Of a DNA stretch of 64,000 bases, positions 18,498 to 60,290 are shown in pieces. Made by a program: the position numbers and the translations under genes. The notes beneath the pieces were generated by a model, which saw only the letters and a list, made by a program, of their open reading frames with translations, ran no database searches and was not told where the DNA came from. This DNA is from Rhizophagus irregularis. Taxonomy: Eukaryota > Glomeromycota > Glomeromycetes > Glomerales > Glomeraceae. The stretch is from the NCBI RefSeq assembly GCF_026210795.1, contig NC_089442.1:4120501-4184500 (forward strand), written 5' to 3'. Within the stretch, counting starts at the first letter, position 1. The number at the start of each line of letters is the position of its first letter.

Positions 18498-18571
18498 GGA
18501 TACAATAAAGTGTAGTATGATACTTTCTAAAAGCTGTAAACGCAAAAAATGTGGTAATTATTTAAAGTTAA

Positions 18572-19658
18572 TTCGTGATCCGCCTCAGAACCAGTGAAAG
18601 GTACTAATATATATCGGGGAACTATTATAGAGATTAATTATTTCTTAAATAATTTTTTCGTGCAAATTTATCAAAATTTTTTTAAATAAAAATGTTTGAA
18701 ATGTTTAAAAAATATAATAAAATTTTAATATAGTCTTTGTAACTGTTGTATCTCTGGGCAAATTCAACATCTATGCATTATTAAGGGTTAGGGTTGGAAT
18801 CTGACGTTGCTAAAGAAAAAATTTTTTAATTAATAGTGCTATGACAAAAATATTGTTATATTTAAATTTTTGTAATTTTAAGCCATCATTTACATTACTT
18901 TTGGATTAAAAATCTTCAAATAATTTTAGCTCAATTCCAATTTCAAATTTAGTTATAATTTGTTATATTTGTAAATGTGTGATTTCTCACCATCTAGTGA
19001 TCCTATAGGGATGAATTATAGCTCTTTGGAATCCTCTCATCATCTAGAATTGAATGGTAATAATTTCATATCTCTATCATCGATATATAACTGGTTAATA
19101 ATATGTTAATATTAAATAATTGCACATAATTGTTGTGTTATATATTGATTATAGAGATATAGAATTACCACCATTCAATTCATCATGATGAGAGGATTCC
19201 AAATAGCTATAATTCATCCTTATAGGATCACTAGATGGTGAGAAATCACATATTTACAAATATAACAAATTATAACTAAATTTGAAATTGGAATTGAGCT
19301 AAAATTATTTGAAGAGTTTTAATCCAGAAGTAATGTAAATGATGGCTTAAAATTACAAAAATTTAAATATAATAATATTTTTGTCATAGCACCATTAATT
19401 AAAAAATTTTTTCTTTAGCAACGTCAGATTCCAGCCCCTAACCCTTAAAAATGCATAGATGTTGAATTTGCCCAGAGATACAACAGTTACAAAGACTATA
19501 TTAAAATTTTATTATATTTTTTAAACATTTCAAACATTTTTATTTAAAAAAATTTTGATAAATTTACACGAAAAAATTATTTAAGAAATAATTGATTTAC
19601 TATAATAGTTCCCCGATATGTATTAGTACCTTTCACTGGTTCTGAGACAGATCACGAA
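18572..19658. mobile_element. 1.09-kb near-perfect palindrome flanked by TTAA
   Basis: Two arms of about 530 bp read as reverse complements with few mismatches, from TTCGTGATCCGCCTCAGAAC at the left to its mirror at 19639-19658, with a short centre near 19115. TTAA flanks both ends (18568-18571, 19659-19662). The inner part contains the CACCATCTAGTGATCC and GGAATCCTCTCATCA modules in both arms. No coding potential. It interrupts the DDE gene after GNYL. Confidence 0.8.
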
Positions 19659-21779
19659 TTAATTATACTATTTAAATTTATTTAAATCATAACTAATTTT
19701 TTTTTTGTTTAAGATATGCAATATGCACATAATGTCGTGGCAAAATAGTTGATAAGCCTTGTCCTGTTCGTTTCATTAAATTTATTCCCTATGATATTGA
19801 TAAATGTCCTTTTGTAGCACTTATATGTATAGGAATACACAACCATCCTTCACCATCACCTGAAAGAATTCCTTCTGGAATTAAAAGCAATTTAGTATTA
19901 CTTCAAGATCAATATTATCAGGTATAGAATATTAATTATAATTTTTAATTAATAATAATTTATTTAATTAATTAATTTTAAAATATTAAACTAATAGGAA
20001 ACTTACTTAGAGCTTATTTTAATAAAGAAACTTTAGCAGAAGTTCATGTTTCTCTCAACAATATAGACAAGTTACGACATTTAGTAGGAAAGGCATATAA
20101 AACCTTGCATCCTTTTGGACAAGGAGTTATGGAAATTTATCATAATATATTAAATCCCAAATCAGATTTAATTGATTATATTCGCAAAATTGGTACTAAA
20201 TTTTTAAATTTTATTGCATCTTTTATTTAAATTACTTATTAATGATAACTACTTTCTTTTAGATCTTTATTCAAATAATGGCCAAGTAATTATCACTTGT
20301 ATACTCAATGACACTTGATTGTTTTCAAATTGATGTCAGTTTTAAGCGAGTAAAAGGAGAGATAAATGAGTTTGAAATAAATACTTATGACTCTAAACAC
20401 CACTTAAGTAAGTAAAATTTTCAAATCTTATCATGTTGTATAAACAATATTTATTAATGATGTTACTAACTATAATATATTTTAAGTATTATCATTTTGC
20501 CGTGTGTTTACTAATGTTTTTACTGCTGAAGGGTATCATAGGCTGTTCTCATCATTATTTCAAATAGTTCATGAAGTAAGCGGCCAGCATATGCAATTTA
20601 AGCACATTCACGGACAAGGAATTGGTTGCATTTTAGCAGATCTAGATGCTGCTCAGGCAAAAGGTCTGGGTTTGGTATTGCATGATTTGGATAGTGAAAA
20701 AAGTTGGAAAATTCACTTAACATATATTTTAAAATCATGTCTTATACACTTTGAAAGGTATTTAAATATAAATGGTTATTTTTTTACATTATTTTTAATT
20801 TTAATTAATTTTTTTTTTTTTCAGAAATTTATTTCATAAAAAATTTTCTACAAGTACAAAAAATTTAATACGACAAATTCCTAATGCTACCAGTAAAGAA
20901 CAAGTTTATGATCTTTTAAAACAAATAGAAGATACTAATGATGAAGGAATTAAAGATATATTATTCATTTATTTTGGAAATTTTAAAACTTTAATAATAA
21001 TTTTAAAATATTGTTTTTTATATTAGAATGGCTGAGTTATTATCAACAACCATATGTTTTAGCTTCTTTAAACAAATATGTTTCAAATGTTGATCATGAG
21101 ATTTGGAATAAAAGCGGATCAGATACTAATAACGCAGAAACAGCTCATTCTATGGTTAACAGAGAAGGAAAACAGTTGAAGTTATTATCAGCCATTTTAA
21201 AGTTAGTTATTTTTTTTTTTAATTACAGATTACATTAGTACTTATTACATACTAATTATTATAAATTAACTTAAAGGGGGAAAAGGTACAATATAAGATG
21301 TTATACAACAATTGAAACTCATGATAAAAAAGGAGTACCTTACACTCATAGAGATAAAAGTGATGTTAAAAGAGTATAAAATTCAATTGCGCGTAAAAGT
21401 AAGTAAAAATATATATTTACTCATTAATTTATTTGTTTATAAAATTTAAATTTTCTTATAATATGTAGCATCTCGTACTCAAAAAAATAAAGAATCTCTT
21501 GATAATAAATTGCCCAAATCATCAAAGAAAAGAAATTTATCACCTTCTAGTAGTAGAACGTCCGTTAAATCAAAGAAAAATCATGAAAGAGAAGATATTT
21601 TATCAGACAATGAGGAATTACTTAAAGAGATTTGTAAAAAAAATCTTGAGCTGGAACTTAAAGAAAAGGAAATATTATTAAAGGAGCGTGAAGTTAAAGC
21701 ACGAATAGAAGAAGCTGAAGCACGAATGATGGAAGCTAAAGCTAAGGCATTAGAATTAGAGAATCGAAACAAATGTTAA

Positions 21780-22011
21780 AAAAATATTATATTTAGTTTT
21801 TGTTTCAAAATAAAGAAAATATAAATTACGTTTAATTTTATCAGATTGCAAAATTTTCTTATTGGTTAAAAATAATGTATGATCACGTGAAATTTTATTT
21901 TTCATACGTACATACATTTTTTTTTGAATTATAATTATACTGAATAGTGTATGTACGTATGAAAAAGTATACTGTATACCATACATTAATCACCATACAC
22001 CATACATTGTC
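21780..22011. other. 3' end region of the 6.6-kb transposon
   Basis: AATAAAG follows the stop codon of the DDE gene at 21810, a plausible polyadenylation signal. The rest is TATG/CATAC-rich sequence leading to the right TIR. Confidence 0.45.
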
Positions 22012-22037
22012 TACCATACATACATACATAGCAATCC

Positions 22038-22700
22038 ATATGTCATGGTCACTATATGTGATATACGTCAAGGGAGTAATTGAGAAATTTAATACATTAT
22101 TACTGTGGGTTTCAGATACCCAGATTTGATCTAATCTTGTGCTAACTCCTTTTTTGTGATAAGTGTTCCCTAGTATTTTTTTATTGAGCTTCCTATATGA
22201 GTCTATAAGTCCCAGTGTTTCAAGATCATTAAAAAATTTGGGTTTGGAGATATGTTGTGGAGGAGTGCGATCGATTTGGCCGTTTGAGATTAAATTAAAG
22301 TCTCCCATTAATATATGTATTATATTGTTTGACTTTTTCCACGTAGTTTCATCACCCATTTCTTTTTTGAGTTTCTCCAAGGCGTCATAAAGAATTGTCT
22401 TATCTTGTGGTACCGTGTAAATGGTCAAGATACTAAACATTATATTTCTAAATAAAAAGTATGCTGAGAGTAAATATGGTGAATGAGTTTTGTGTCCTTG
22501 ATAATGTTTATTCCATTTCCATGAACATATTAACACCATTCCCGATCCCTTATATTTGTCATACTGTCTACTTGACCAATATATATGGAATTGGTCTTTA
22601 AAACTGTCGGGTATTTTGAAGAAACCATTTTTTTGGTCTAAGTTGGTTTCGTTTAAGGCCATAATGTCCACCTGATTTTCGTGCATCCAGTTTATACATC
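22038..22700 (-). pseudogene. LINE ORF2, endonuclease part (APE-type)
   Basis: Minus-strand frame with apurinic-endonuclease motifs: NQVDIMALNETNL (catalytic Glu), ILMGDFNLI, LGLIDSYR, RLDQIWVS and TYSDHDIW. The N-terminal roughly 40 residues expected before INWMHEN are absent. At the 3' side the frame is cut by the TIR transposon at 22037; its continuation is at 15419. Endonuclease, polymerase and RNase H pieces thus lie in order on one strand, so I treat them as one former LINE. Confidence 0.8.
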
Positions 22701-23195
22701 TCAATAGTTAATACATCTATACTAACAATTTTCCAACCAGACCCTTCTTTCATAAATTTGACAATTTTATCTTCGATTTCCACTGCTGTCTTTGTTAAAT
22801 GACCATCTATATCATTCTTTAAAAGAAGTACACACATAACTCCTCTATGATAAACTTGCTTATATGTTCCAATATTCTCTGTATATGTAGCCAATATAGT
22901 GATGGCTGATTTGATTTGCCCCTTTTCTTCAAGTTCACTCTTAAGAATTTCTGTTATTTTCTGACGGGTATCAGCTATTATACTTGGAAAATATGGTATA
23001 TCTCTAACATTTGGATTAAGATCAGCTTGCCATACTATCTTATGTTTTAGAGATGTATGTGGGCGTGCAGGATCATAATCTCTTTTTACAAATTGAATAT
23101 CACACATCTTCCTTTATAATCTCCTTGCATATCAGCAAACCATTCATTATCTTTTTGTGGAGTACTTCTTTTTCGTAGAGTATAATGATTTTAAT
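22685..23195 (-). pseudogene. Polinton/Maverick-type DNA polymerase B, N-terminal fragment
   Basis: The minus-strand frame (ATG 23107, coding signal to about 23195) reads FVKRDYDPARP, KIVWQADLNPNVRDIPYFP, HRGVMCVLLLKNDIDGHL and IEMYKLDARKSGGHY. I recognise this as the region preceding the polymerase proper in Polinton-like proteins. The pattern ARK.GGG.Y at its end normally leads into the catalytic part, which is missing: the sequence passes into the LINE endonuclease instead. Only a fragment is present, with no catalytic motifs. The assignment is from memory of family motifs. Confidence 0.55.
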
Positions 23196-26908: not shown

Positions 26909-27499
26909 TAATCTACTAAAACGCTAATATCAGATATAGATTTAGATAGTAGCTAAATCAAGTAAGCTATAGTTATGTAAACTTTGAAAAATATAGAAGA
27001 ATAATTGATATAATATGACTTTAACAAAAAGATATGATCATAAAATACCAGAAATGTGATGCTCTCGTATTCATGATCCATTTAGAAAAATACTTAAAAA
27101 GAATCCAGAAATTTTTTCTACGAATAGATATATTGAAGGTGATTTCTATTTTTATTTTTATTTTTAAAATAAAGACTAGTACTGGGGTCCAACAATACAT
27201 AGGAACAAGAGCCTACAAAGTAAGACCATTATTCCAAGCTAATAATAAAACCCAACCTCTCAAACGAATCGAAGGGGTCGCCTAGCCTCGCTCCACAAGG
27301 AACGCAGGCTTAGCCGCAACTCAAGCTACGAACCAAATAGAACAAAAAAAGACACTCAAACACTAATTTAGCGAGAGTTCCCAGTCGAAAAAAAAAAATT
27401 ATTAATTCTGCCTATTCTGAATAAAATCTATTATTCTAATAACTACTAAATCATTAAGAAAAAAAGTAAGAATCGCCGGCAGTCAACCGACAGAAATAA

Positions 27500-29163
27500 C
27501 TATACTATTTTTCGCAGTAAGGATAAAATTTCTGCTAAAACCACCGTGTTATCCTTATTACCTCCTTTATCCCTAGGCTTCTTATTGGACTTCGACTTCT
27601 GGGATTCGGGATCCTTCAACGAGTCTTTAATAGATTTGGCTTGCTTCTTAGCACTGGTCGAGGATTTCTGGTCCTTCTTCTTAAGGTTAACGTTACCAGA
27701 CTGTTGCACGGATTTTCCAGGCTTCTTGTCAGGAACGTACTTTGCCTTTTGTTTAGATGGTGGTTTCTTCAAGGTAGGTAAAGAGTGTCGACACCATTTC
27801 AACTCTGGGGAAAGCTTGTGGAGTTCCTAAGGCTTTGAGTGTAGCCTCCCAATTCTCGAAATATCCTACGAGCTTCCTCTTACCTTTACTTGTTTGTATA
27901 ATTTTAAACGCGCATGCACCGCACATCGTTAAAAATAGTTGTGGTTTACGGTCGGCCCACAAGGTAGCCATCGTCATGTCAACCGGAATATCGTGAATGA
28001 CAGCTTGGAACTTTTCACGTTGTTTTCTTTCTCGTAAAGTCCAACTTGCAGGAAACCATCTCACAGGTATACCTCCCAGGTAAGGTTGCTTGTCTAAATC
28101 TCTTCAAAATCCTACGATTAGTTTCGTCAAAATTTTACTATAGATTTATTATAGTTTTGGCAGAGTTTCGGCAGTTTCGGCATTTATAATAAGTTTCGGC
28201 AGTTTCACCTTTCTCCAAAGTTTCGCCAGTTTTTTAATATAACTTTAATATAGTTTCGGCAGAATTTCGCTTTTCGGCGAAACGCCATCTTGCCTAAACC
28301 CCTAGGTTTCAGCAAGCAACCTTACTCCCAAGTCAATCGTCCAGAACTTGTTAAATTGGGAAAGGGTAAATGAGTTTAAAACTATTTTGACTCTAAGAGT
28401 CTGATATTTGTGTTGCCGTTTTAATGATAACTTAATAGTTTTGCCTATAACGTTAATTCTCCTAAGATTTTGTCAACGTCCCAGGTATACGGAATGTCAT
28501 ATACAATAATGTCTCTGACTTGCTCTCGCTCATCATCGCTTTCTTTGTATCCTGTCAGTATATGTGTGACCCAGGTGCGGTAGTTTTTGCCCCCAAAAAT
28601 AGGGTATTTTGTTTGTCGGGGGTTTGTGCCTCAGGATTTGCTGTAAATGATTGGTGTATAACTTGTTTATCTTTTGCAACACGTGCCTTTTGTTTATATT
28701 TCTTCCGGGAAGTTTCGGGTGTCACAGTTTGATTAACAGGGGTTATTTCCACATCGGGCAGTATTGGGGGTGTAATATGTACTGGTTTTGGTGTAGTTTT
28801 CAGAGTTGATAAAAAAGTAGATCCAAATTCGTCATCAGCGGAGGGACATTCCGACTCTGAGTCACCCATGTCACCATAATTAGTATAGGCACGGGAAGCA
28901 AAATCATCCCACAACCTGGACGAAACGTAAAGAGCTATAGAAAATAATAGCGAAAGGGTGGTTGGTTGTATATTCGTCACCGCCGCCTGTTGAGCAAAGT
29001 TGTTCAGGTTGGCAGACTCGCCAAACATATCTACTAAAAGCTGTGCTTTATCCACAGGTTGCTGTGGGTTTTTATCAAACAAAGTTTTGAGGAAACCGTT
29101 CTCGGCAATAAACTCTAAAAAGAGCTCCGCAGGTGTTCCAACTGAGTCTCCCATGTGTGACAT
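27500..29163 (-). pseudogene. LINE-type ORF1, copy 3, interrupted by a MITE
   Basis: Starts at ATG 29163 (MSHMGDSVGTPAELF; the second Met may be the true start). 202 codons are open, including NGFLKTLFDKNP, TNIQPTTLSLLFSIALYVSS and PPILPDVEITPVNQTV. Then it shifts near 28555, is cut by the MITE at 28081-28324, and continues as FQAVIHDIPVDMTMATLW and FKIIQTSKGKRKLVGYFE, with a Lys-rich tail ending LAEILSLLRKIV. Very similar to the copy at 11129-12608, both lacking part of the N-terminal region found in the 49706 protein. Confidence 0.8.
28081..28324. mobile_element. 244-bp MITE, TAAGGTTGC family, copy 1
   Basis: Starts TAAGGTTGCTTG and ends CAAGCAACCTTA. Flanked by CTCCCAGG (28073-28080) and CTCCCAAG (28325-28332), an 8-bp TSD with one change. 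Interior repeats GTTTCGGCAG. Two relatives: 39859-40007 and 54728-54972. Confidence 0.85.
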
Positions 29164-30012
29164 TTTTATTTTATGTAAAAAATTTTAAATAAAGTGAAAA
29201 AATTTAAATAAAATTTTTGCAGAAATTTTCGTAAAAATGAAAAGAAGAAAGAGTTTTTTCAAAGATTCATCTATTGAAGGTGATAAAGTTGGCACTCTAT
29301 CAACTGATTATATATATTGTAGTGTATGTGACTCTTTAGTTTTCATACCTAAAAATAATTATAGCACCTGTTTCTATCATTGAAAAAATGTATTTCTGGA
29401 AATACTATTTTGAATGAACATGTAAGAAGAAATGAACAATATATATTACAAGAAGAGGCTAAAATTAATCATCTTCATCTAGAGCTTTTCTTCCAATTTA
29501 CCATATTGATATTATATGATTATAATACTCGTACAATTCTTTATGAAGCTTACATGTAAACTAAAGCAACTATAGCAGAAAATACTATGCCAAATGCTTC
29601 AAATTTTGAGCCAGCTTATATTTCTAATACCAGGCAAAAAATGGGTTTGCCGATTTTTCATCATGTGTTAAACTAAAGATCTAAAACACTAAATGTGCTA
29701 ACTTCTCCTCTATTGTTATAAAAACCTGATACTTTAATGCAATGTAACCTGAAATTTTTAGCAGAACTAGTTTGAGCAATCTTGCTGAAGCATATTTCAA
29801 TTCTATATAGAAAAATGCAAGAAAAAAATAGACTTAATATCTTTCAACTGAATATTCTGAATATTAACATTATAGCTGATTGCAAAATTGTAAGACCACC
29901 CTATGATTTTTTAATTTAAAAATTTGATAATTTGAATTTGACATGTTTAACTATTGCATCTCTATAAGAAATATGTATACAAAAATAATACGTTTTATAT
30001 ATATTTTATGTA

Positions 30013-35757: not shown

Positions 35758-36149
35758 TTATTTATTTATTTATTTTATGTGAAGCAGGTTGGGAATACAA
35801 AAAGGGATAGATTAACAAGTAATACGACCTAAATAAAGCCTACCATCAAAGACCAGAGGAGCTGGAAACTGACCCTAACTTCTTAAAAAAAAAAGAACTG
35901 CACCACTACCACGTCCGATAAAGGTCCAGGCAAACACACTGGGAAAAATAAACAAAGTGGAGAGGACAAGTCCCCTTTTCAAGAAATTGTGGCACTACAC
36001 ATAAATATTTTCTATCCTAAAAAATAATACAATTCTGAAATGCGTAAAACCGCTAATTAAAGCATAAGCTAAACTAGTTTCTGCAATAAAGTTAAAATCT
36101 CTGCTAAAACCGCCTTGTTATCTTTATTACCACCCTTTTTCTTCAAGGA
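35758..36149 (-). mobile_element. 5'-truncated ORF1 retroelement (subfamily A)
   Basis: On the minus strand it starts in the last codons of ORF1 (GGNKDNKAVLAEILTLLQKL), has the subfamily A 3' UTR and ends TTCACATAAAATAAATAAAT. It abuts the MULE pseudogene exactly where the N-terminal half of that gene is missing. Confidence 0.75.
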
Positions 36150-37795
36150 GTTATATAACAAATACAATAACGTTATAATAATACTTGATACAACTTATAA
36201 CATGAATAGGTTTCAAATGATGCTATGCATCTTAACAGTAATTGATAATAATTATAAGACTAAGTGCTATTATTGTAGATGAAACATTAGACACTTATAG
36301 ATGGATCTTTGATACTATACTGACTGAAACAGAAGTTTATCCCAGAGTTATCTTCACTGATTCAGATCCTTCAATGATTCATTTAATTTAATTAAAGAGA
36401 TTTATTCCAATCTACTGTGCATTTTCAATATTGATCTGAATCTCAGAAAAAAGCTTAAAGGAAAATTGGGTAGTCAGTTTAAGGAATTTCACCGTAAGTT
36501 CTATGCATATTGCAATTCTCTTTGTGAGGAACTATTTGAATGCAAATAAAATCAGTTAGTAGATCAATATCCAGCAGCAGCAAAATATCTATCTGAATCA
36601 CTCTATGTTAAAAAGGAATCATAAGAAATATCCTGGATATACAAACAATTTACTACTGGAGCCCAAAGCACACAATGAATTGAATCGAATAAACATATAC
36701 ATGATAAAAGTTGATTGAGCTACCTTGTTATGTGATCTATTACATAGTATTAAAGATCATGTTAAAAATGAAAAACATCTTAAAAAATTTGAAATTGAAC
36801 GAAATGCATTACCTAAAGTTGGAATGCCAATGTTGAATATGAGATTTTTTGGACAAATGGATACTATTATCAAAGACTTCTTAACACCAGTAATGCTTGG
36901 AAAACAGTGATCACAAATGAATCAATCAGTATGCTATGATGCAAAACGGATTATAGAATGGCAACAGTTTATAGAGTTGATTATTGATATTGAGTTAGAT
37001 TTTATTATGCTTCGTCCATATGTGATTTTGTGACTAAATCATATTTTCAACACTTTTAGATGAAAACTGATAATGAAGATAACTAATTAAAACTATTCCA
37101 CCAGAAGCTATCATAGAAGTATAGCATGTACGAGCAATTGGAACTAAAGGAATAGGTCATTATGTGATTCTGCTTAATAAAGGAACGCATTTATGTACCT
37201 GTCTTCTTTTAGTCAATTAAGGGTTGGTATGCCATCACTTTCTTCGTGTTGGTACTTATTTCCAATATTCAATATTTCATATAAGTATAATTCCAAACTA
37301 ATGGTACTTAAATACTAATATTCATCCAAATGATCTTTTGCAACAACATCCTTCTATTCTGGTATGTGGCATAATACAAGAAAATGTAGAAACAGAAAAA
37401 AGTATCAACTTTCAGCACTTTTTTTTGTTTCAGGTTGATTCACATAGTTACCAACCATCTGTAAAATCAAGTAAAGCCATTTATGCAGAATTATTTGGGT
37501 TATCTAAGACAAATATGCAACATAAGTTAGTGAACTTACTCAAGGCTTTTATCTATGACACACAGAATAAGAATATTCAGGAAGTAGAACCCTTTGATGT
37601 TAATAACCCAGCTATTATCAAGCACAAAAGATGACCTCCAAAAAGGTTTAAATCAAATGTTGAATTGTCTTCGTCTAAGGGATCTAAATGAGTATTGAAA
37701 GATAGTACACAGGTTAATATAATAGATCATGATGTTATAGATGAAACAAAGAGGCAAAGATGCGGGAAGTGTAAGCAGTATAGATATTACTTAAA
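36150..37795 (+). pseudogene. FAR1-type MULE transposase, copy B (C-terminal half)
   Basis: Parallel to copy A from YSKYNDVII onward: ILTVIDNNYK, the FTDSDPSMI acidic motif, LCIFNIDLNLRKKLKGKLG, QYPAAAKYLSESLYVKKES, DLLHSIKDHVKNEKHLKKFE, KVGMPMLNMRFFGQMDTIIK, the SWIM-like CTCLL..(C)H region and the C-terminal KTNMQHKLVNLLKAFIYDTQ with RCGKCKQYRYY. The FAR1 DNA-binding domain is missing; frameshifts are frequent. The 3' UTR is interrupted at 37867-40818 by an ORF1 retroelement. Confidence 0.75.
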
Positions 37796-39858
37796 ATTAA
37801 CACATTTATATAGCATATATAACATGTATGTTTAGCATTTATTGCATGTATGTATATGCTGCTTTTGTACATGATTTATATATATATATTTTTTTTTATT
37901 TCAGAAAGTCGTTATCGCATTAGCGCACATGATAATACATCCCATACACATTGGTACAAGACCTTACCTTCTGTTAAAGAGTAAAACACTTCTAGATGAA
38001 ACTTCGCCATGTAGGTTTGCCCATACGAACTGGGTAAATAAAAAAAAGGGAATCAACTGGGATAAACCCCTCTAAAGACAAAATTTCTGCTAAAACCTCC
38101 TTGTTATCTTTATTACCACCCTTGTTTATTGAGGATTTCTTTGCCTTCTTCTGAACGTTCAGGTTCTTCAACTCGTTATTATCTTTAGAAGCTTTGGTCA
38201 AGGATTGTTGTTTATCCTTCTCTTAGACTGATTACTTACCAGAACTTTACATTTCTGTATTTTTAGTCTTTGGTTTGAATTGTGCTTTTTTCATGTTAGG
38301 AATGGAGTATCAACACCATTTCAACTCCTTACCTGATGGCAAGGTAACTGGTGGTTTATCTAAGGCCTTGAGTGTGGTCTCCCAATTCTCGAAATATGCC
38401 ACCAGTCTTCTCCTTCCTTTACTTGTCTGAATAATTTTAAATGTGCTAGCACCACATTGCATTAAAAATTCACATGGTTTACGGTTTGACCACAAGGTAG
38501 CTATTGTCATTTCCTCCAGAATATCATGAACGTTATTATTTCTCTCATAAAGTCTAACTTGCAGGAAATTATCTCACAGGTATACCTCCCAGATCTGGGA
38601 AAGGGCAAATGAAGATAGTGCTATCTTGACTCGAAGAGTCTAATACTTGTACTGGCATTTAACCAAATACTTGATAGTATTACCCATAGTTTTAACTCAG
38701 CTAAAATCTTTGGCAGGTCTCAGGTATACGGAATATCGTAAACTATTATGTCTTGGATTCGCTCTTGCTCCTCTCCGACAGCTTCGTATCCTGTCAGTAT
38801 TTGAGTGGCCTCAGATTCAGATGATTTCTTATCCTTTTGGGAATTTTTGACTGATATTTTTGCCGTTGTTGATTGGTTCTTGACTTGTTTATCAACTGTA
38901 GTATGCGCTTTTGTTTATCTTTCTTCTGGGATTTTTTAGGTATTACAGTATGATCAACAGGGGTTATTTCCATATCAGGCAGAATTGGAGGCATTTCAAC
39001 TACTGGAATTGGTGTTTGTAATCCTAATTTATTGACCATTAGCTCATCTTCATCTTCATCAGACTCATCTTCAGATGACTCATCTAATCCATCATCTGTA
39101 ACACCTTCATCATATTTGACATCACCTATATCACGAAAGAATTGGGTTGCAAAATTTTCCCAAGACCTGAACAAAACATATAATGCTATAGAAAATATTA
39201 GCGAGAGGGTAGTGGGTTGTATATTCGTAGTTTAAGCTAGTGAAGTGAAGTTCATAGGATTGGCTGCTTCGCCAAACTTTTCTATCAATATTAAACTGGG
39301 CTGTATCCACAGATTTTGACGTATTTTTTTCAAATAAGTTCTTGAGGAAACTGTCCTCTATAAAAGAACTTAAGTGTGTGTAATATTTTGATAAAATATT
39401 AGGTTAAATTCAAAAATGAACTCTACAGCTAGTTCAAACTGTGTTCTACTTAAAGCTTCAGTTCAGTGCAGTTTTTTTCTGGTTCAAGTAGGAACCAAAC
39501 CAAATGAAAACCAAACTGGAACCATCTGGTTCAGTTCAGTTCTATCTGATTTAAAGAAAAAATGCAAAAATTGAAATAACTCAACCTGAGATATTCACTG
39601 CTAAACATATTTTATGAAACTATTGATCTAGAGAAATGATCTTAGCATCATTCAATAGGTCTTAATGAGACAAATTTAATGAGCCTTTTTTTATTTTTTT
39701 ATGATTACTACATAACGAATTATCTTAATTTTCGCATTTTTTTAAATTTTAATAATTGTATAAGAACAATCTTTAGCTCATTAGAACTGTCTCAGTGAAA
39801 TGAGTTGAATGATGGTAAGATCATGTTCCTAGCGTTGGTATATCATGAGATAAGTCAT

Positions 39859-40007
39859 TAAGATTGCCTGCCTAAACCTAGTTTCTCGCAAGATTTCAGC
39901 AGTTTTTTTTGGCATTTATAATAAGTTTCGTCAGGTTTTGCTTTTCTCCAGAGTTTTGCTAACTTTTGCCAACTTGCCAAAACCCCCTAGTTTTTCCAGC
40001 AACCTTA
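39859..40007. mobile_element. 149-bp MITE, TAAGGTTGC family, copy 2
   Basis: Starts TAAGATTGCCTGCC, ends CCAGCAACCTTA. Perfect 8-bp TSD TAAGTCAT at 39851-39858 and 40008-40015. Interior GCATTTATAATAAGTTTCG matches copies at 28081 and 54728. Confidence 0.9.
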
Positions 40008-40404
40008 TAAGTCATGCTAAGCAATTTTAGAAAATCAGTATTAGAAAGGTATCTATTGATGCTAGAAACATGATCTTACCATCTAAGATCAGAATTTTTA
40101 TTTTTTAATGTTCAAAAATTTAAAAAAATGCGAAAATTAAGATAACTTGTTATGTAGTGATTATAAAAAAATGAAAAAAAAGGCTCATTAGATTCGTCTC
40201 ATTAAAACCTATCGAATGATGCCAAAATCATTTCTCTAGGATCAATATATATAATTTTATCACTAGTTTCTAGAGAGATGTTCTTAACACCATTCTTTAT
40301 ACGATCACTGGTTACTGAGTTATTTCAATTTTTGCATTTTTTCTTAAAGTAAAATAGAATTGAACTGAACCAAAAACTGAACCAAATTTTTGGTCAATTT
40401 TGAA

Positions 40405-40630
40405 AGGGCCCTGCTTACTTATAAGATAGGTCACCTCCAGGCCTAAGGTAAAAATCATATATAAAATTCTTTGCAGATCCTACTATAAAAGGAAAATTTA
40501 TGTTACATTGTTATGATTTTTTTCCTTTTTAACTAATTAACCAATAGAATTTAAGAAAAAAGTAAGGTAAAAACTATTAGTAAAGGCCAATTTTCTACAG
40601 TGACTTTTATTATAAGTAAGCAGGGTCCTG
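40405..40630. mobile_element. About 226-bp MITE
   Basis: GGGCCCTGCTTACTTATAA (40406) and TTATAAGTAAGCAGGGTCC (ends 40628) are TIRs. TSD TTTTGAA at 40398-40404 and 40631-40637. Confidence 0.8.
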
Positions 40631-40803
40631 TTTTGAATCAGTTTTTGGTTCAAACTAGAACTGTTTAGAGCTCTAGTTCTACTCTTATTCAGATTTATTT
40701 TTATATTTGTTTGTAATAAAATTTAATAAAAGAAATATTTTTTTAAAAAAAATTATTATATAGAAATTTTCGTAAAAAATGTGTTCAGGAAAGAATTTTT
40801 TTC

Positions 40804-46412: not shown

Positions 46413-49400
46413 AATGTCCTATAACAACTGCATTCAAAACGCTATGGATGTTTTTGCATATGAACAAAATGCTACTTTGACGCATCATGTGATACACGTC
46501 AGTCTTATATTTATTCTTCATCAAAATTTTGTTATATAACTAAATAATAAGTGTTTGTATTTCTTTATTAATAGTCTATTGATTCATACCTGTCAACATT
46601 TGACAACACTTTACAAGATGAAGTTCTAGATACAGATGAACAATATACAAACCTCACATCATATATACAATATGCTGCTCCAACACACCTCGCGCCATAC
46701 GTTGCCCCAGATGAATAATATGCTGATGATTTTCTAACACGCCTCATATCATACACTCCAGATAAAAATGCCGCTACTCTGGCACACTTCACATCAAATA
46801 TTGATGATGCCACTCTAACAGATCTCACATCATATGTTGTTCCAGACGCTGATGGTACTCTTACACAATATACTTCTCCAACATGTCTTATGTTATATGT
46901 ATGTTGGTTATCCATTTATTCATCATGGCTTATTCTTGTTAATATTTTGTCTGACTTATTCATGTTTCTAAATAGCCTTCTGCGCCAAGTTTACCAACGT
47001 CAGATGACACTTTACAAGATGATGAATCAGATGGAGACAGTGATAATCAACCTTTGGAATTGGTCTCCGGACTCACCTTCATAAGCTGGGATGAATTCAA
47101 GAATTGGTTAGATAGGTTTGCATTAAAAGAAGGATTTGATCATAAGATTAGAACGAGTGAAAAAGATCAAGGGATTTTGAGAAGGGTTACTTACGAATGT
47201 ACCAAGTCTGGCTCACATAATCCACAAATTACTTCAGATCCAACTAAGCATCGTAATGCTTTTTCTTCACGAATGCTCTGTTCCTGGAAACTTAATGTCA
47301 CCTGTCCAAAAAAAATGGTGTTGTAAAGATTAATTCATTTAACAATCATCATAATCATCCTCTTACCCCAATTATTCGTGAAATAGCACCAAGTTTTTGT
47401 AAATTAACATCTAAAATGTTAGAAGATATAGAGAAGTATGTTAACCAAGGACGAATGGACTCAGGATCTATATATCCTTTGCTTAGACATGATTATCCAG
47501 ACCAACCTATTTATAAGAAGGATTTATACAACGCGGTATATCAATTTCATCAGAAAAACAATCCAGGTGCCACTGATGCATCCCAGATGCTTCAGCAATT
47601 GCTAGAATGGAAGGATTCAGAGCCACTCTGGATAGTTAAACCTAGACTAGAACCAATCTCAAGAAAATTAAGCTCTCTTTTTTAGATGTCACCAGTACAA
47701 AGAAAGCTATATAGCAAATATAATGACGTTATAATACTTGATTTCAAATGATGCTATGCATATTAACTGTAATTGATAATAATTATAAGACTAGAATTGT
47801 GGCAAGTACTATCATTGAAGATGAAACATTAGACACTTATCGATGGATCTTTGATACTATACTTACTGAAAGTCTGAAACAGGAGTTTGTTCCAGAGTTA
47901 TCTTTACTGATTCAGATCCTTCAATGATTTGTTCAATTAAAGAGATTTATCCCAATATTCAGCACCTATTGTGCATTTTCCATAGATCTAAATCTCCGAA
48001 AAAAGCTTAAAGGAAAATTGGGTAGTCACTAGTCAGTTTAAGGAATTACACCATAAGTTCTATATATGTCACAACTCTCTTTGTGAGGAACTATTTGAAT
48101 GCCGATGGAATTAGTTAATAGATCAATATCCAGCAGCAGCAAAATATCTATCTGAATCACTCTATGCTAAAAAGGAATCATGGGCAATACCCTGGGTACA
48201 CAAACAATTCACTACTGGAGCCCAAAGTACACAACGAATTGAATCAATTAATAAACACATACATGACAAAGTTGATCGAGCCACTTCATTATGTGATCTA
48301 TTACATAGTATTAAAGATTATGTTAAAAATGAAGAATATCTTGAAAAGTTTGAAATTGAACAAAATGCCTTACCTAAAGTTGGAATGCCAATGTTAAATA
48401 CAAGATTTTTTGGACAAATGGATGCTATTATCAAAGACTTTTTAACGCCGGTAATGCTTGGAAAACAGTGATCACAAATGAATCAATCAGTATGCTATGA
48501 TGCAAATCGGATTACAGAATGGCAACAGTTAATAGAGGCAAGTAATTTTGATATTGAGTTAGATTTCATTAGGTTTCGTTCATATGTGATTTTGTGACTA
48601 ATAAATCATATTTTTAACACTTCTAGACGGAAACTGATAATGAAGAAATAAGTATTGGAATTAGAGAAGAGGAGCAAGATATACGGCAAATCCTTTTCCA
48701 ATCATTAATTAAAACTATTCCACCAGAAGCTATCATAGAAGTATGGCATGTACGAGCAACTAGAACTAAAGGAATAGGTCATTATGTAATTCTGCTTAAT
48801 GAAGGAATGCATTTATGTACCTGTCTTCTTTTAATCAACAAAGGGTTGGTATGCTGTCACTTTCTTCGTGTTGGTATTTATTCCCAATATGCAACATTTC
48901 ATATAAGCATAATCCAAAACCAATGGTACTTGGATACTAATATTCATCCAAATGATCTTTTGCAACAACATTCTTCTATTCTGGTATGTGGCATAACACA
49001 AGAAAATGTAGAAACAGAAAAAAGTATCAATTTTCAGCACTTTTCTTTGTTTCGGGTTGATTCACATGGTTTCCAAACACCTGTAAAATCAAGTAAAGCT
49101 ATTTACACAGAATTATTTGGGTTATTAAAGAAGGTATTAACTGTGCACTTAAGACTAATATGCAACATGAGTTAGTGAACTTACTCAAGGCTTTTATCTA
49201 TGACGCACAGAATAAGAATGTTCAGGAAGTAGAACCCTTAGCTGATATTAATAACCCAGCTATTATTAAACACAAAGGACAGCCTCCAAAAAGATTTAAA
49301 TCAAATGTTGGATTGTCTTCGTCTAAGGGATCAAAACGAGTATTGAAAAATAGTACACAGGTTAATATAACAGATCATAGTGTTATAAATAAAACAAAGG

Positions 49401-49459
49401 GGCGAAGGTGCGGGAAGTGTAAGCAGTATGGACATTACTCAAAGACGTGTCAAAATTAA
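46413..49459 (+). pseudogene. FAR1-type MULE transposase, copy A
   Basis: Exon 1 starts at ATG 46413 (MSYNNCIQNAMDVFAYEQ); GT..AG introns end at about 46573 and 46977 (the latter joins LMLY to PSAPSLPTSDD). The FAR1-like DNA-binding domain follows: FISWDEFKNWLDRFALKEGF and RRVTYECTKSG..CSWKLNV..NHHNHPL (47080-47360). The MULE core has LTVIDNNYKTRIVASTI, DTYRWIFDTIL, VIFTDSDPSMI and LCIFHIDLNLRKKLKGKLG. Then LYAKKESWAIPW, INKHIHDKVDRATS, a SWIM finger (CTC ... CCH near 48815-48860), and a CCHC knuckle RCGKCKQYGHYSKTC before TAA 49457-49459. Stops near 47684, 48112 and 48470 and shifts make it inactive. Usual lengths in this family are 700-900 residues, consistent with this span. Confidence 0.8.
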
Positions 49460-49705
49460 CACATTTATATAGCATATATAACAATATATAACATGCATCA
49501 GGAAGTCACAGGAAAAATGTTCATCAAATGTACATCGGTCACTTGATGTACATCATAAAGAAACGCTGAACATCGGACCCTGCAATGTACTACCGATGTG
49601 AGAAGGAGACTCTTTCCCAAATACATTTTTTACAAAAATTTCTGCGTAATAATTTTTTTTTAAAAAATAATCCCCTTTATTAAATTTTATTACATTAATA
49701 TAAAA

Positions 49706-51211
49706 ATGTCTATGGATAAGAGCCGAATACCAAACGAAGAAGCTTTAGACTTCGTTTCTAAGTTTAACAAAATTTATTTTCAAACTTTTACACACCACTT
49801 AAGTTCTTTTGTTACAGACGGTTTTCTCAAGGACTTATTTGAAAAAAACCCCTCAGTACCTAAAGATAAAGCCCAGATACTGATAGAGAGGTTTGGCGAG
49901 ACAGCCAACCCTGCGAACTTCTCTTCACAAGCTCAAGCTACGAATATACAACCCACCACCCTTTCGCTAATATTTTCTATAGCACTATATGCTGCGTCCA
50001 AGTCTTGGGATAATTTTTCTACCCAATTCTATCTCAATTTTGGCGATACGGGTATTGATGATGATGACGACGATGATGGATCTCAGCATACTGATGATTA
50101 TCTGATGGATGAGTCATATCAGCTTAAGCCCGATGTAGATGAACTTTTACGCCAAGGATTTCAAATGCCACCAAATCCAGTACCTATCAAGCTTCCATCA
50201 ATGCCTGATATAGTAATGCCCCCTGTTGATCAAACTGTGATACCCGAAAATTCCTGGAAGAAAGATAAACAAAAGGTGCGTGTTACAGATGATAAACAAG
50301 TCGCGAACCAATCAACAAAGGCAAAACCTGATGTAAAAACATCAGCCCAAAATTCCCAAAAGGGAAAGAAATCATCCGAACCGGAGGCTACACAGATACT
50401 GACAGGATACGAAGCTGTCGGAGAGGAGCAAGAGCGAATCCGAGACATAATAGTTTACGATATCCCGTATACCTGGAACCTGCAGAAAATTATAGCAGAG
50501 TTAAAATTTTGGGGGAACGCTATTAAATGTTCCGTTAAATGGCAACATAAGTATCAGACTCTTCGAGTCAAAATAGAACTTTCCTCATTTGCCCTTCCCC
50601 AGTTTAATAAATATTGGACGACAGACCTGGGAGGTATACCCGTTAGATGGTTCCCTGCAAGTTGGACTTTACGAGAAAAAAAACAACGTGAAAAGTTCCA
50701 AGCCGTTATTCATGACATTCTGGAGTTTATGACGATGGCTACCTTGTGGATGGACTGTAAACCATGTGAATTTTTAATGAAGTGCGGTGCTAGCTCATTT
50801 AAAATCATTCAAACAAGTAAAGGAAGGAGGAAACTTGTGGCCTATTTCGAGAATTGGGAGACCACACTAAGAGCCTTAGATACACCACAGTTTTACGTAC
50901 CTGATGGTAAGGAGTTGAAATGGTATCAACACTCCATTCCTACCTTGAAGAAAGCACAAAATAAACTGAAGGCTAAAAATACACCAAATCCGAAAAAATC
51001 AAGTAAGTCTGATAAGAATTTGGAAAGTAATCAGCCTAAGAAGAAGGATAAACCTACATCCTCGAAGAAAGTCCCAAAAAATAATAACCAGGAGGAGAAA
51101 CACCCGAAAACTCAGAAGAAGGCAAAGAATTCCTCGAAGAAAAAGGGTGGTAATAAAGATAACAAGGCGGTTTTAGCAGAGATTTTAACTTTATTACAGA
51201 AACTAGTTTAG
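49706..51211 (+). CDS. Intact LINE-type ORF1 protein, RNA-binding (501 aa)
   Basis: ATG 49706 is the first Met of the frame, 106 nt from the element's 5' end. Residues 1-110 are helical and conserved in all copies (FLKDLFEKNP, TNIQPTTLSLIFSIALY). Residues 117-125 are an Asp run, 152-215 a Pro-rich then basic linker. Residues 247-320 look like an RRM (IIVYDIPYTW as RNP2-like, QTLRVKIELS as RNP1-like), and 340-395 like a second one (FKIIQTSKGRRKLVAYFE). Residues 415-485 are Lys-rich; the end KAVLAEILTLLQKLV is a Leu-rich helix that could self-associate. By analogy with LINE ORF1 proteins it should bind RNA and form ribonucleoprotein particles. It is the only undamaged copy in the window. Confidence 0.85.
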   Translation: MSMDKSRIPNEEALDFVSKFNKIYFQTFTHHLSSFVTDGFLKDLFEKNPSVPKDKAQILIERFGETANPANFSSQAQATNIQPTTLSLIFSIALYAASKSWDNFSTQFYLNFGDTGIDDDDDDDGSQHTDDYLMDESYQLKPDVDELLRQGFQMPPNPVPIKLPSMPDIVMPPVDQTVIPENSWKKDKQKVRVTDDKQVANQSTKAKPDVKTSAQNSQKGKKSSEPEATQILTGYEAVGEEQERIRDIIVYDIPYTWNLQKIIAELKFWGNAIKCSVKWQHKYQTLRVKIELSSFALPQFNKYWTTDLGGIPVRWFPASWTLREKKQREKFQAVIHDILEFMTMATLWMDCKPCEFLMKCGASSFKIIQTSKGRRKLVAYFENWETTLRALDTPQFYVPDGKELKWYQHSIPTLKKAQNKLKAKNTPNPKKSSKSDKNLESNQPKKKDKPTSSKKVPKNNNQEEKHPKTQKKAKNSSKKKGGNKDNKAVLAEILTLLQKLV

Positions 51212-51539
51212 CCTACGCTTTAATTAGTGGTTTTACGAATTTTAGAATATGTATTATTTTTTAGGATAGAATAGGTTTATGTGTTTGCACCATAATTTCT
51301 TGGAAAGAGGACCTGTCCTCTCCACTTTTTTTCCTTCTCCTTTTTTTTTTACCCAGTGTGTTCGCCTGGACTTTTACCAGACGTGGTAGTAGTACAGGTC
51401 TTTTATTTTCAAGTAGTTCGGGTTGGCTTCCAGCTCCTCTGGAAATCGATGGTAGGATTCAGTTGGGTTGTATTACTTCGGAATCATGCTCACGTTTATA
51501 TCCCCTGCCGGCTTCACATAAAATAAAATAAATAAAATA
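51212..51539 (+). other. 3' UTR and tail of the intact half-LINE (subfamily A)
   Basis: Contains CACCATAATTTCTTGGAAAG, GACCTGTCCTCTCC, and the terminal GCTTCACATAAAATAAAATA. The same block follows ORF1 in copy 1 (8046-8360) and in 35758-36149, so the ORF1-to-tail junction is conserved. Confidence 0.8.
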
Positions 51540-51769
51540 AATGTACTACCGATGTCACAATATTTGATGTGCATCACCTAATTTTAATGTCCATTAATGA
51601 TGTACATTATTTAAAGATAATAAACATCATATTAAATTTATAATATTATTGAATTTATTTTATTAAATACACTATAACAATAATATTAGCTAAATTTTTC
51701 TATTATTAAAAGTAACAACTGTTAAAGAAAATGAAAAAAAAGACAGTAGGTTTCGCAACGAAACTTACA

Positions 51770-53190
51770 ATCTTTATATTAATTAACTAAATACTCCAGG
51801 ACCTACAAAAAAAAGTTTGAAGTTATTCTTCGAAACTTATCCAAGAAGTACAACCTAACAATAAAAAGATAAAAAAAGTATTAATAAAAAATTAATTTAA
51901 AAAAAAATTTTAAAAAAAGTTTTGAAGTAAAACTTCGAAACTTACCAATCCATTCCGTTAAGATTTGTATATACTTACAAATCTTGATCTTCTTGTTTCA
52001 TTTTTCAGAAATTCACCCGAAACCTAAAAAACCGTTCCATAATATTTAAAAAAAATAATAAACAAACCAAGATTCGTACTCACGAATCTTGGTTTCACTA
52101 AAAAATAAAACAAAAAGAACGGTTAGAACCATTCATAGTATTAAAAAAAAATAAATCTAAGGTTCATAATATAATACTTACGAACCTTAGTTCTCCTTTT
52201 TCCGATCTTCGGAAATCCACTCGATCCTCTAAAAAAAAAAAGAAAGAACGGTTAATAAACCGTTCGTAATATTAAAAAAAATCTAAAGTTCGTAGTAAAA
52301 TACTTACAACCCTCAGTTTATTATTTTCCGTTCTTTGGAAGACCACCTGATCCTATAAAAAATAAAAGAAAAGAACAGTTAGTAACTGTTCGTAATATTA
52401 AAAAAAATAAAAAAAACTCCCAAAAGATTTGTATTAGTACTTACGAATCTTTAGGTTTTTCCATTCTTCAAAAGCTCTCCCGAGACACTGAACCTATAAA
52501 AATAAAGAAAGAAACGGTTAGTAAACCATTCCATAATAATAAAAAAAATAAATAAAAACCAAGATTCTTACGAATCTTGGTTCTCCGTTCGTCAGAAGTC
52601 CACCGAACCTATAAAAGAAAGAAAGGAACAATAGTAAATCATTCTATAAAATAAAAAAAAAAATACCAAGATTCTTACGAATCTTGGTTCTCCGTTCGTC
52701 AGAAGCCCACCAAACCTATAAAAAAAAGAAAGGAATGGTTAGTAAACCGTTCTATAAAATAAAATAAAAAATACTAAGATTCTTACGAATCTTGGTTTCC
52801 GTTCGTCAGAAGCTTACCGAACCTATAAAAAAAAAGAAAGGAACGGTTAGTAAAAACCGTTCCATAAAATAAACAATAAAAAAAAAGATTCGTACTTACC
52901 ATTACGAATCTTTGGTCTTCCGTTCTTTGGAACTCAGAAGCCCACCCGAACTTAAACAAAAAAAAAGAATGGTTATTAGTAACCGTTCGTAATAATAAAA
53001 AATAAAAATAAAAAACCAAGATTCATACATACTTACGAATTTTGGTTTCTCTTTTTCCGAAGATCGGAAGTCCACCCGAAATCTAAAAAGAAAAGAACAG
53101 TTATTAGTAACCATTCTAAAATAATAAAAAAAAACAAATAAAACCAAGATTCTTACGAATCTTGGTTCAAGTCCCCTTCCTCCAATCCCC
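51770..53190. repeat. Array of about ten paired-hairpin units (106-135 bp each)
   Basis: Each unit has one hairpin of the type AAGATTCGTA..TACGAATCTT and one of the type GAACGGTTAGTAAACCGTTC, separated by A-rich spacers and TCCGTTCGTCAGAAGYCCAC. The second hairpin occurs near 52030, 52136, 52255, 52385, 52520, 52632, 52743, 52853, 52976 and 53103. Stem changes are often matched on the other side (AAGGTTC..GAACCTT at 52158). Not coding. Confidence 0.8.
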
Positions 53191-57480: not shown

Positions 57481-57888
57481 TAAAGAGAATTGGCAAACCT
57501 AAAAAAAGAGAAAATTTTGTGTCTAAGCTGGCATCCTACAAAAGAAACAATTAAAGAAATGTTAAACCGTTTTTTAAGTTAAATAAAAAAATAGCACACC
57601 TCTCTATTTCTTACCTTAAAGTCCAGTTTCGTATTCAATTTACAACTGAAAAAAAAATAAATAAAAAAAATATTAAAACGTTTCTTAGATTAAAAAAAAA
57701 TAAAATAGTAACACCTCCTCCATTTCTTACCTTAAAGTCCAGTTTCGTGTCCAAGCTAGCACCCTACAATTGAAAAGAAACAAATAAAAGAAACATTAAA
57801 ACATTTTTTAGATTAAAAAAATAAAATAGTAACCCTCCTCCATTTCTTATCTTAAAGTTCAGTTTAATGTCTAAGCTGGTACCCTACA

Positions 57889-58338
57889 ACTATAGATGCT
57901 GTCAGAATTATTTTTACGGTTACGGCACGTGCTGTAACGCCGTAATTAAATGCCGTAAATCGTAAACACCGTGATGCCGTAATGCCGTAATTGAATTTAA
58001 CGTCATAATGTCGTAAATATATATGCCGTAAATGAATAAGACTAAACTTAATTTCAGCCAAGTTCGTAATGCCGGGTCAATTTTTTCACGTTTCACCACG
58101 TGACATTACACAGATTTCCAAAAAAGGAAATTATATCCCTCAATAAAATTGAATAATGGGTTGCACAAGGTTACACAAGTTTCCAAAAAAAGAAAACATT
58201 CCTATCAATTGTTTAGCATTTGTAAAAGTCACGTGATAATGATTAATTACGGCGCCACATTACGGTTACGGCATTATTTACGACATATGTCGTAATGCCG
58301 AAATGTCGTAATTAGGGAATTCCGATAGCACCTATACC
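57889..58338. mobile_element. About 450-bp element rich in TGCCGTAA
   Basis: Ends GATGCTGTCAGAATT and AATTCCGATAGCACC are imperfect inverted repeats. At least ten ATGCCGTAA / CGTAATGTCG-like words crowd both ends and partly pair with each other (TTACGGCAT). The interior includes GGTTACACAAG and TTTCCAAAAAA. The frame at 57864-58061 is a by-product of these repeats. Confidence 0.7.
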
Positions 58339-58639
58339 TACAACTGAAAAGAAATAAATAAAAGAAATATTAAAACGTTTCTTAAATTAAAAAAAATAAA
58401 ATAGTAACATCTCCTCCATTTCTTACCTTAAAGTTCGAAGTTGGTACTCCACAACTGAAAAGAAACAAATAAAAGAAACGTTAAAATGTTTCTTAATTAA
58501 AATTAAAAAATACTACCTCCTCATTTCTTAGGGGCATGCCAGAAATAAGCTGATTTGAAAGAGAGTGGAGGAGTCAAGCTTCAGATCAGGTCTATATATC
58601 ACATGATATTTATATATATAAATATAACATAAACTTTTT

Positions 58640-58910
58640 TTTAATTTATAGCTCTCATTTAGCTCTACAAATCTAGCTTTATAAAACAAAAAAATGTTTT
58701 TTCAAATTGAATCACTAGAAGCCAAAATATTTGTATTTACATTATAATAATTATTATAATGCAATTATCTTGACTTCTAGTGATCCAATTTTAATAAACT
58801 TTTTTTTAATTTATAGTACCCATTTAGTTCTATAAATCCAGCTTTACAAAACAAAAAAAAGTTTGTTCAAATTGAATCACTAGAAGCCAAGATAATTATA
58901 TAATACTAAT
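58640..58910. repeat. Palindromic CTTCTAGTGATCC modules
   Basis: TTTATAGCTCTCATTTAGCT, TTCAAATTGAATCACTAGAA and ATCTTGACTTCTAGTGATCC appear twice; matches 8390-8576 closely. Confidence 0.75.
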
Positions 58911-58938
58911 TATTATATATAATATTTAATATTTAATA

Positions 58939-59768
58939 CAGTCAACTCTCTTTATAGTCACACATTTGGAACAGTCCATATTTGGTGATTATAAAGAGAT
59001 GTGACTATATAAAAAATTTTTTATATTAGTATATCATAATTCCGGCCAAAAATTAACATAATTTTGGCCAAAATTATACTTAAAACTTTATTGTATCATA
59101 ACTCCACCAATGTTAATCATAGAGAGATGATCTTACCGCCATTCGATTCGTCTCAATGAGACGGTTCTAATGGTATAAAATACATCGAATTCCAATTACT
59201 AGATTAATTTCTGAAATTAAAAAAATATTAATGGTTTTTGTGTAATAACTCTGCCAATATTGATCCTAAAGAGACGATCTTACTACCATTCGATTCGTCT
59301 TGATGCGACGAATCTAATGGTATAAAATACATCGAAATCCAATCACTAGATCAATTTCCAAAATTAAAAAATATTAAATGGTTTTTAAGTAGTAACTCCG
59401 TCAATATTGATCACAGAGAGATGTGCTTACCACCATTCGATTCGTCTTGATGAGGCGATTCCAACGAGCTATTAATTGTTTTTTTACAATCACTAGGTAC
59501 CGAGAAATTTAGCAAAATGTTAAATGGCGCAGTAAACGTAAATCAAGAAATATAATAATGCCAATGCTTAACATTTTGTCGAATAATTCATCAGCCAGTG
59601 ATCATAAAAGGATAAAATTACCACCATTCGATTCGTTTCAGTGAGACGATTCTAACAAGCTATGGTACATCTTTATACGATTATTAGATGCCAAGTTATT
59701 TAATATATTCTTTATATAACTGTGATTATAAACGGTTCTTTTTAATATAAGATTTTTGAGTTGACTGT
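58939..59768. mobile_element. About 830-bp pogo-like element with four tandem modules
   Basis: Left end CAGTCAACTCTCTTTATAGT after TA; right end GAGTTGACTG near 59767. Between, four modules of about 150 bp each have ACCATTCGATTCGTCT followed by RATGAGACGATTC (near 59140, 59290, 59440 and 59625). Confidence 0.7.
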
Positions 59769-60290
59769 CGGTAGTAATAATTTTTTTAGCCAATCAGATT
59801 TCAATCAGGTAGGAGTGGGGGTAACTACCCTAGCGTTCCCCCAAAAAAAAGCACTGGTGGCTGGCATTATGCGGAATTATGCACTGTCACGTGAACAGTG
59901 CGGTGACAGATAAGGTGTGACGACTAAGTTTTTTTCAACTCGAAAAAAACTAAGTCCCTCAGATAAATATAAACAATGAAAACACTGAGGGGTGTGATGG
60001 ATGTGATGATTTTTTACTTGGACACGCTACCAGTGCTTTTTTTTAACAGTGAAGCTAGGATAGAATGTGGGCATGCATTTCATGGAGAAATCAGCTGATT
60101 TCTGGCATGCCCCTTACCTTAAAGTTCAGTTTCATGCTCAAGCCGACACCTTACAAAAGAAATAATTAAAAGGAACGTTAAAACATTTCTTAAATTAAAA
60201 TAAAAAAAAATAACTCCTCCTCTTTTCCCATTTCTTACCTTAAAGTTTGTTTCATATCCAAGCCATCACTTTACAAAAGAAATAATGAAA

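Follow-up and report, generated by a model that had tools for sequence, protein, structure and literature searches.

An ORF1-only LINE family of Rhizophagus irregularis is confined to one internal, probably centromeric site on 31 of 32 chromosomes

The mammalian half-L1 element HAL1 derives from L1, and we know of no confinement of HAL1 to one site per chromosome; the Drosophila element HeT-A inserts without target site duplications (TSDs). These are the closest described counterparts of the retroelement analysed here, a half-LINE of the fungus Rhizophagus irregularis whose sole coding sequence is a LINE-type ORF1. HAL1 is likewise described as non-autonomous and as encoding ORF1p only (PMC5753468). 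It differs from the half-LINE, which has a local LINE relative and an apparently fungal LINE ORF1 that is putatively of the RRM type and shows no zinc knuckle. HeT-A, found together with TART and TAHRE, is also LINE-type, codes for Gag (ORF1) only, has been proposed to take its enzyme from another element and keeps to one chromosomal address (PMC4467039, PMC3776773); it lacks pol and depends on its Gag for targeting telomeres (PMC4467039). According to the same descriptions HeT-A transposes to chromosome ends (PMC4467039, PMC3776773), whereas the half-LINE occupies internal, centromere-like sites and has TSDs. By analogy, the half-LINE may work like HeT-A without being a member of the HeT-A/TART/TAHRE group. 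Two further systems share the location. Grem-LINE1 of Mucor, a related fungal group, is a LINE at centromere flanks (PMC7377519), and Celine and other plant LINEs colonise centromeres and have TSDs and a tail as the half-LINE does (PMC11288735). In contrast to the half-LINE, which lacks ORF2, Grem-LINE1 has ORF1 and ORF2, a comparison by description only (PMC7377519), and Celine carries both ORFs with endonuclease (EN) and reverse transcriptase (RT) (PMC11288735). As far as these accounts extend, none of HAL1, HeT-A, Grem-LINE1 and Celine combines ORF1-only coding with centromere-like confinement.

The published repeat annotation of R. irregularis includes several LINE families along with repeats that it does not classify (PMC11075540). 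The 2023 genome paper still calls the centromeres unlocated; it reports 17 of 32 scaffolds as telomere-to-telomere, with uniform read coverage (PMC10234402). A search of the open-access literature (PMC; subscription papers and preprints lie outside this scope) revealed no paper on R. irregularis centromeres or ORF1-only elements. The word 'centromer' occurs neither in PMC11075540 nor in PMC10640383; PMC10234402 and PMC8647823 have it once each, the latter in the title of a reference.

We analysed a stretch of 64,000 nt (the window; C14:4120501-4184500) and searched the genome, which comprises 32 contigs with 146,748,485 bases. The perfect 16-bp TSD of the window element, and a 328-nt UTR with tail directly after ORF1, had been claimed in an earlier note on this DNA and were both confirmed (Table 1). 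No ORF2 lies in the 3' UTR and tail of this element. Other copies of the family begin at ACTCTTTCCCGAATAC after a few variable nt; in the window element ACTCTTTCCCGAATAC stands at 49609. The same note had counted at least four more copies in the window, and these are present as copies A to D, with A and D interrupted and no TSD detected in the examined flanks of B. The TSD of copy A (17-18 bp) consists of A and T only and was read by eye, as the automatic filter excludes two-letter matches.

Table 1. Half-LINE copies and associated features of the window (positions in the window).
Feature	Position	Strand	Remarks
Half-LINE element	49600-51539	+	complete, TSD-flanked retroelement; sole coding sequence a LINE-type ORF1
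TSD, 5' copy	49584-49599	+	AATGTACTACCGATGT, 16 bp
Extra nucleotides between TSD and the conserved 5' end of the family	49600-49608	+	9 nt
5' UTR	49609-49705	+	94-97% identity in the other 39 of the best 40 of 89 candidates
ORF1	49706-51211	+	501 aa (501 codons), intact
3' UTR	51212-51539	+	328 nt, with (AAAT/AAAAT)n tail; directly after ORF1
TSD, 3' copy	51540-51555	+	AATGTACTACCGATGT, 16 bp
Copy A	2991-8361 (about 2991-3970 plus 7671-8361)	+	interrupted by a hAT-like insertion (ORF 5246-6685)
Copy B	about 10774-12675	-	subfamily HC2 (48% aa); sits within a LINE ORF2
Copy C	about 27144-29254	-	subfamily HC2; TSD 13 bp
Copy D	about 37882-40795	-	TSD 15 bp; internal insertion between about 40682 and 39430
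3' fragment of a further half-LINE copy	35761-36152	-	
Broken L021-type LINE	9240-22704	-	host of copy B; EN about 22695-22039, RT about 15394-12675, RNase H about 10772-9240

The LINE that hosts copy B belongs to a family dispersed in the genome, which served as a control. Its type copy, L021, is an EN-RT-RNase H LINE of about 6 kb that ends in poly(A) and seems by eye to be flanked by a TSD; no ORF1 was seen upstream, and it is a possible counterpart of the ORF1-only elements. Several other structures were observed in the window. A large inverted repeat at 18563-19667 has arm segments of 336, 161 and 96 nt that are 90, 98 and 81% complementary, around a 1-nt centre. Pieces with 88-92% identity form a direct duplication of about 1.3 kb (36471-37795 and 48030-49443, 11.6 kb apart), the second copy of which stops about 140 bp before the half-LINE. 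AT-rich repeat fields, one of them with the palindrome CCAAGATTCTTACGAATCTTGG, lie downstream of the element at 52524-53168 and 57533-60214.

A search of the genome with ORF1 revealed 101 matches (86 of 1049 candidates scored), and a search with the 3' UTR revealed 40 (the best 40 of 87 candidates scored). Upstream of these 40 scored 3' UTR matches we found ORF1 in 38 and ORF2 in none, the remaining 2 being truncated inside the UTR. The UTR match begins within 7 bases of the end of the ORF1 match in 31 cases and is contiguous with the ORF1 end in 4 more; the other 5 were read individually, 3 of them following ORF1 and 2 being cut within the UTR. Full-length copies are uniform in size (1.90-1.94 kb) and share the same junctions. 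TSDs of 14-20 bp flank 18 of 19 full-length copies, compared with 3 of 342 pairs that reached at least 11 bp when flanks were swapped; L017, for which no TSD was found, is the sole exception. This set consists of 18 genome copies and the window element and includes L018 but not L013, whose 5' end is apparently inverted (by eye) and whose TSD measures 11 bp; L019 is also outside it, its 3' end lying beyond the sequence compared. The set of 19 used for ORF1 stops differs slightly, including L013 and not L018: 7 of these ORF1s are free of stops and 12 contain them. Codons 246 and 348 are recurrent stops, in 7 of 19 and 3 of 19 copies. The best pair of copies is 99.4% identical. The ORF1-only layout is therefore no one-off deletion, as the earlier note had argued, and its parallel between this half-LINE family and HAL1 gains support from the count of 0 of 40 for ORF2; the recent activity that it proposed is plausible given the 7 intact ORF1s and the 99.4% pair. 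Taken together, the family is very likely a trans-mobilised ORF1-only element.

The intact ORF1 had also been called RRM-type, and here only the first half of the claim, the 501 open codons, stands directly; the assignment to the RRM type is only indirectly supported. Searches of the window ORF1 against Pfam gave no family up to E 1, and its relatives gave sub-threshold matches only. Over residues 243-408 the window ORF1 can be aligned with the ORF1 of autonomous 8.2-kb LINEs of the same genome (hhalign: 154 columns, probability 78, E 1.7e-5, 24% identity), an RRM-bearing protein in which Pfam RRM_1 was detected. This remote homology suggests descent of the half-LINE ORF1 from an autonomous-LINE ORF1. 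The autonomous proteins have a CCHC-like motif that was not seen in the half-LINE ORF1; no zinc knuckle and no EN, RT or RNase H match was detected in the window ORF1. Its C-terminal region has a basic tail and the conserved end VLAEIL.LL.KLV. A search of the PDB sequences with a sister ORF1 (L027) gave a single weak, unrelated match, and the AlphaFold models of two window sequences were poor (pLDDT 38 and 42), leaving the RRM fold without structural confirmation. With ORF1 as its only coding sequence, a TSD and an A-rich tail, and an ORF1 homologous to that of an autonomous LINE of the same genome, the element is a LINE-derived half element of the HAL1-like kind.

Purifying selection acts on ORF1, with a median NG86 dN/dS of 0.41 over 171 pairs. 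Changes on internal branches fell on codon positions 1, 2 and 3 in 56, 40 and 101 cases, compared with an expectation of 63, 66 and 68 given base and CpG composition (p=1e-6). On terminal branches the corresponding numbers were 181, 169 and 260, with 203, 199 and 208 expected; this weaker skew fits decay following insertion. In the ORF1s of the HC copies, that is of the subfamilies HC1 and HC2, the rate of change at CpG sites is about 3 times that at other C or G positions, which fits cytosine methylation.

HC1 is the subfamily of the window element and has 48% protein identity with HC2, the subfamily of copies B and C. Within the sensitivity of the searches, 31 of the 32 chromosomes each have one internal site, no larger than about 130 kb, to which the half-LINE family is confined. 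Four queries combined (ORF1, 3' UTR, 5' UTR and a further query restricted to rows of at least 48% identity) gave 303 match rows, which overlap and are not 303 copies. On 31 contigs, 293 of them lie within 100 kb of one point per contig, a descriptive count since each site is the median of the same rows; the remaining 10 are at second, smaller loci on C13 and C18. No half-LINE copy was found on C29 in the combined queries, and the assignment of C24, with one row in these queries, rests on two short matches. The combined-query searches score the best candidates only, and a pattern search for the 5' end (at most 3 mismatches) was added as a count per strand. It gave 61 matches (29 + 32 on the two strands; 0 + 0 for the reversed control), and 60 of the 61 lie at the sites, spread over 26 contigs with C24 among them; the pattern reaches HC1-like 5' ends only, and the counts are lower bounds. 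Near-identical young copies (98-99.4%) were located only at the sites. The TSD and target sequences of the half-LINE have no common motif by eye. Three head-to-head pairs of half-LINEs were observed (C4 about 3668360/3668495, C20 2461503/2461643 and C12 2119231/2119377), with 5' ends about 134-145 bp apart and intervening sequences unrelated to each other.

Ordinary LINEs are only mildly enriched near the sites, at about 10% compared with 4%. ORF2 controls were found within 100 kb of the sites in 11 of 111 (RNase H of the window LINE), 10 of 94 (second family) and 14 of 150 matches (third family), with 4.2% expected by chance, and the 141 rows of a query with the endonuclease of the window LINE were judged by eye to be mostly dispersed. 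Rows below 48% identity, set apart from at least 150 listed matches of one query, belong mostly to sister subfamilies, and 3 of these 28 are at the sites, two of the 3 being probably decayed half-LINEs.

These sister subfamilies, H1 and H2, are ORF1-only as well and fall below about 47% identity. H1 comprises 7 copies at 6 loci with 97-98% identity to L027 and poly(A); 6 of the 7 copies, at 5 of the 6 loci, are in short tandem repeats. The microsatellite hosts of these 6 copies are ATGTCA, GTACTTA and GTACAT repeats (L025, L027, L028, L029, L040). H2 comprises 4 copies with 99.3-99.8% identity to L026, poly(A) and TSDs of 17-19 bp. L030 and L031 are of the sister type. The single pair L027/L026 gave a dN/dS of 0.27/0.69 between H1 and H2; the mean was left aside, since the set contains the frameshifted copy L041. 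As H1 and H2 are dispersed and ORF1-only, coding for ORF1 alone is a habit of the wider group and confinement a trait of one branch, a branch old enough to span HC1 and HC2 with their 48% protein identity.

Comparison of 3' ends links HC2 to an autonomous family, the L024-type LINE, which has an ORF1 of 787 aa, an ORF2 of 2119 aa with EN, RT and RNase H, and an (AAAAT)n tail. The last ~120 nt are common to both: the scores are 73 for copy B and 63 for copy C, compared with shuffle maxima of 27 and 30 (0 of 1000 shuffles each). For the HC1 3' end, similarity to the L024-type LINE is not significant, with 128 of 1000 shuffles doing as well. Its resemblance to HC2 copy C was equalled by 1 of 1000 shuffles, and that to copy B, a less clear case, by 23 of 1000. 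The L024-type ORF1 gave no significant match with the half-LINE ORF1 (E 0.18). A search with the L024-type 3' end revealed 41 matches on 22 contigs (40 of 57 candidates scored), linked to an ORF2 on C8, C11 and C21 only, and none of the 41 is at a site, whereas the HC2 3' UTR has 13 of 13 matches at the sites (Fisher 9e-13).

The autonomous 8.2-kb LINEs of the L043/L042 type, whose ORF1 has the CCHC-like motif, have an ORF2 of 1885-1920 aa and a different 3' end and are dispersed, partly in tandem arrays. They repeat head to tail with an 8.2-kb period (L042, L043; also C5, C2, C8, C10, C23), and the L042 and L043 copies terminate in ...GTTTGCC beside short repeated targets (AAGGACTGAT or GTTTTTGACCAGTA), an arrangement suggestive of self-tandem insertion at specific sites. 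When the start of the 5' UTR was compared with the L043 LINE, 8 and 17 of 500 shuffles were as good for HC, 0 of 500 for H1 and 22 of 500 for H2; the possible kinship of HC with the L043 LINE in this region is weak and suggestive only.

Position and number of the half-LINE sites point to the centromere, the universal once-per-chromosome internal locus, and we consider it probable that each site is the centromere or its flank. On 23 of the 26 contigs of known length the site lies at 0.33-0.73 of the contig; off-centre sites are those of C28 (0.08), C23 (0.17) and C14, the contig of the window (0.83; site at about 4.13-4.17 Mb). The one-per-chromosome site could instead be another heterochromatic locus or a feature of the assembly. 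The second loci on C13 and C18, the absence from C29 and the three off-centre sites would suit this alternative. It is improbable, however, given that the 32 scaffolds are chromosome-scale, that 9 of 14 sampled contig ends carry TTAGGG arrays (one other end is all N), that 17 of 32 are described as telomere-to-telomere with uniform coverage (PMC10234402) and that the sites are internal on nearly all contigs of known length. A histone search gave 24 matches, and among the six loci read, two (L068, C19:3782200-3783000; L069, C11:3640850-3641650) have divergent H3 first exons. These H3 genes in pieces are possible candidates for CENP-A; a PDB search did not distinguish between H3 and CENP-A.

For the element at these presumed centromeres, a non-autonomous ORF1-only LINE derivative that is copied in trans and confined to its site is the overall best explanation and a fairly likely one. 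Among the alternatives, ordinary LINE copies with internal deletions, or a SINE, their ORF1 being open by chance, would suit the stops in 12 of 19 full-length copies. Uniform units with identical junctions and purifying selection on ORF1 make this extremely improbable; a deleted LINE is ruled out by the absence of ORF2 from all 40 copies checked, and a non-coding SINE by a 501-codon ORF under purifying selection. A more serious alternative is that the half-LINE inserts anywhere through dispersed LINE machinery and survives only in gene-free, recombination-poor centromeric DNA. The slightly raised number of ordinary LINEs close to the sites is in its favour, yet 60 of 61 far exceeds that enrichment, ORF1-only sisters of the same size persist on chromosome arms (the H2 copies with near-identity to L026 among them), and even young half-LINE copies are found only at the sites, which renders mere retention unlikely. 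A centromere-specific autonomous LINE might also supply both enzyme and address, with the half-LINE following it; ORF2-bearing centromere LINEs are described elsewhere, Celine in poplar (PMC11288735) and the pericentric Grem-LINE1 in Mucor (PMC7377519). Here, however, relatives of four ORF2 queries (three LINE families) from such sites were mostly dispersed, and the LINE type with the 3' end of HC2 had none of its 41 matches at the sites. No site-confined ORF2 partner appeared among the best-scored candidates of the four queries, which a rare family could escape, and we regard this explanation as rather unlikely.

TSDs and a tail in an element without its own ORF2 are signs of target-primed reverse transcription with a foreign enzyme. 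Since the half-LINE has TSDs and a tail and lacks ORF2, it would be copied in this way, with the ORF2 protein of another LINE acting in trans. The L024-type LINE is the likely donor, at least for HC2, because it has the 3' end in common with HC2; the enzyme partner of HC1 is less certain, as its link runs through HC2. The donor-type 3' end is dispersed and missing from the sites, so that a borrowed reverse transcriptase does not explain the address. Because the presumed donor was not found at the sites and the targets have no common motif, the address would be set by the half-LINE's own part, ORF1p or RNA, and most simply by ORF1p carrying the RNP to centromeric chromatin. We hold such ORF1-directed targeting to have a little less than an even chance. 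More tentatively, and by analogy with HeT-A, ORF1p might recognise centromeric chromatin and bring a borrowed LINE RT to it; the element would then make up part of nearly every centromere and may help to define it.

The one-site location is the main news beyond the confirmed half-LINE and constitutes a natural experiment on what addresses a LINE. Two LINE functions are separated in it: a 3' end common to both elements is dispersed in the L024-type LINE and restricted to one site per chromosome in HC2. This difference in distribution points to an address that lies in ORF1 or RNA and not in the endonuclease. An address set by ORF1 or Gag is known for telomeres from the Gag of HeT-A, and for centromeres it is not described in the literature examined, as far as its available text extends. 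For an arbuscular mycorrhizal fungus and important plant symbiont, the family supplies a probe sequence and the positions of a candidate centromere for 31 of its 32 chromosomes. The half-LINE thus marks the probable centromere and suggests how such elements may find that spot.
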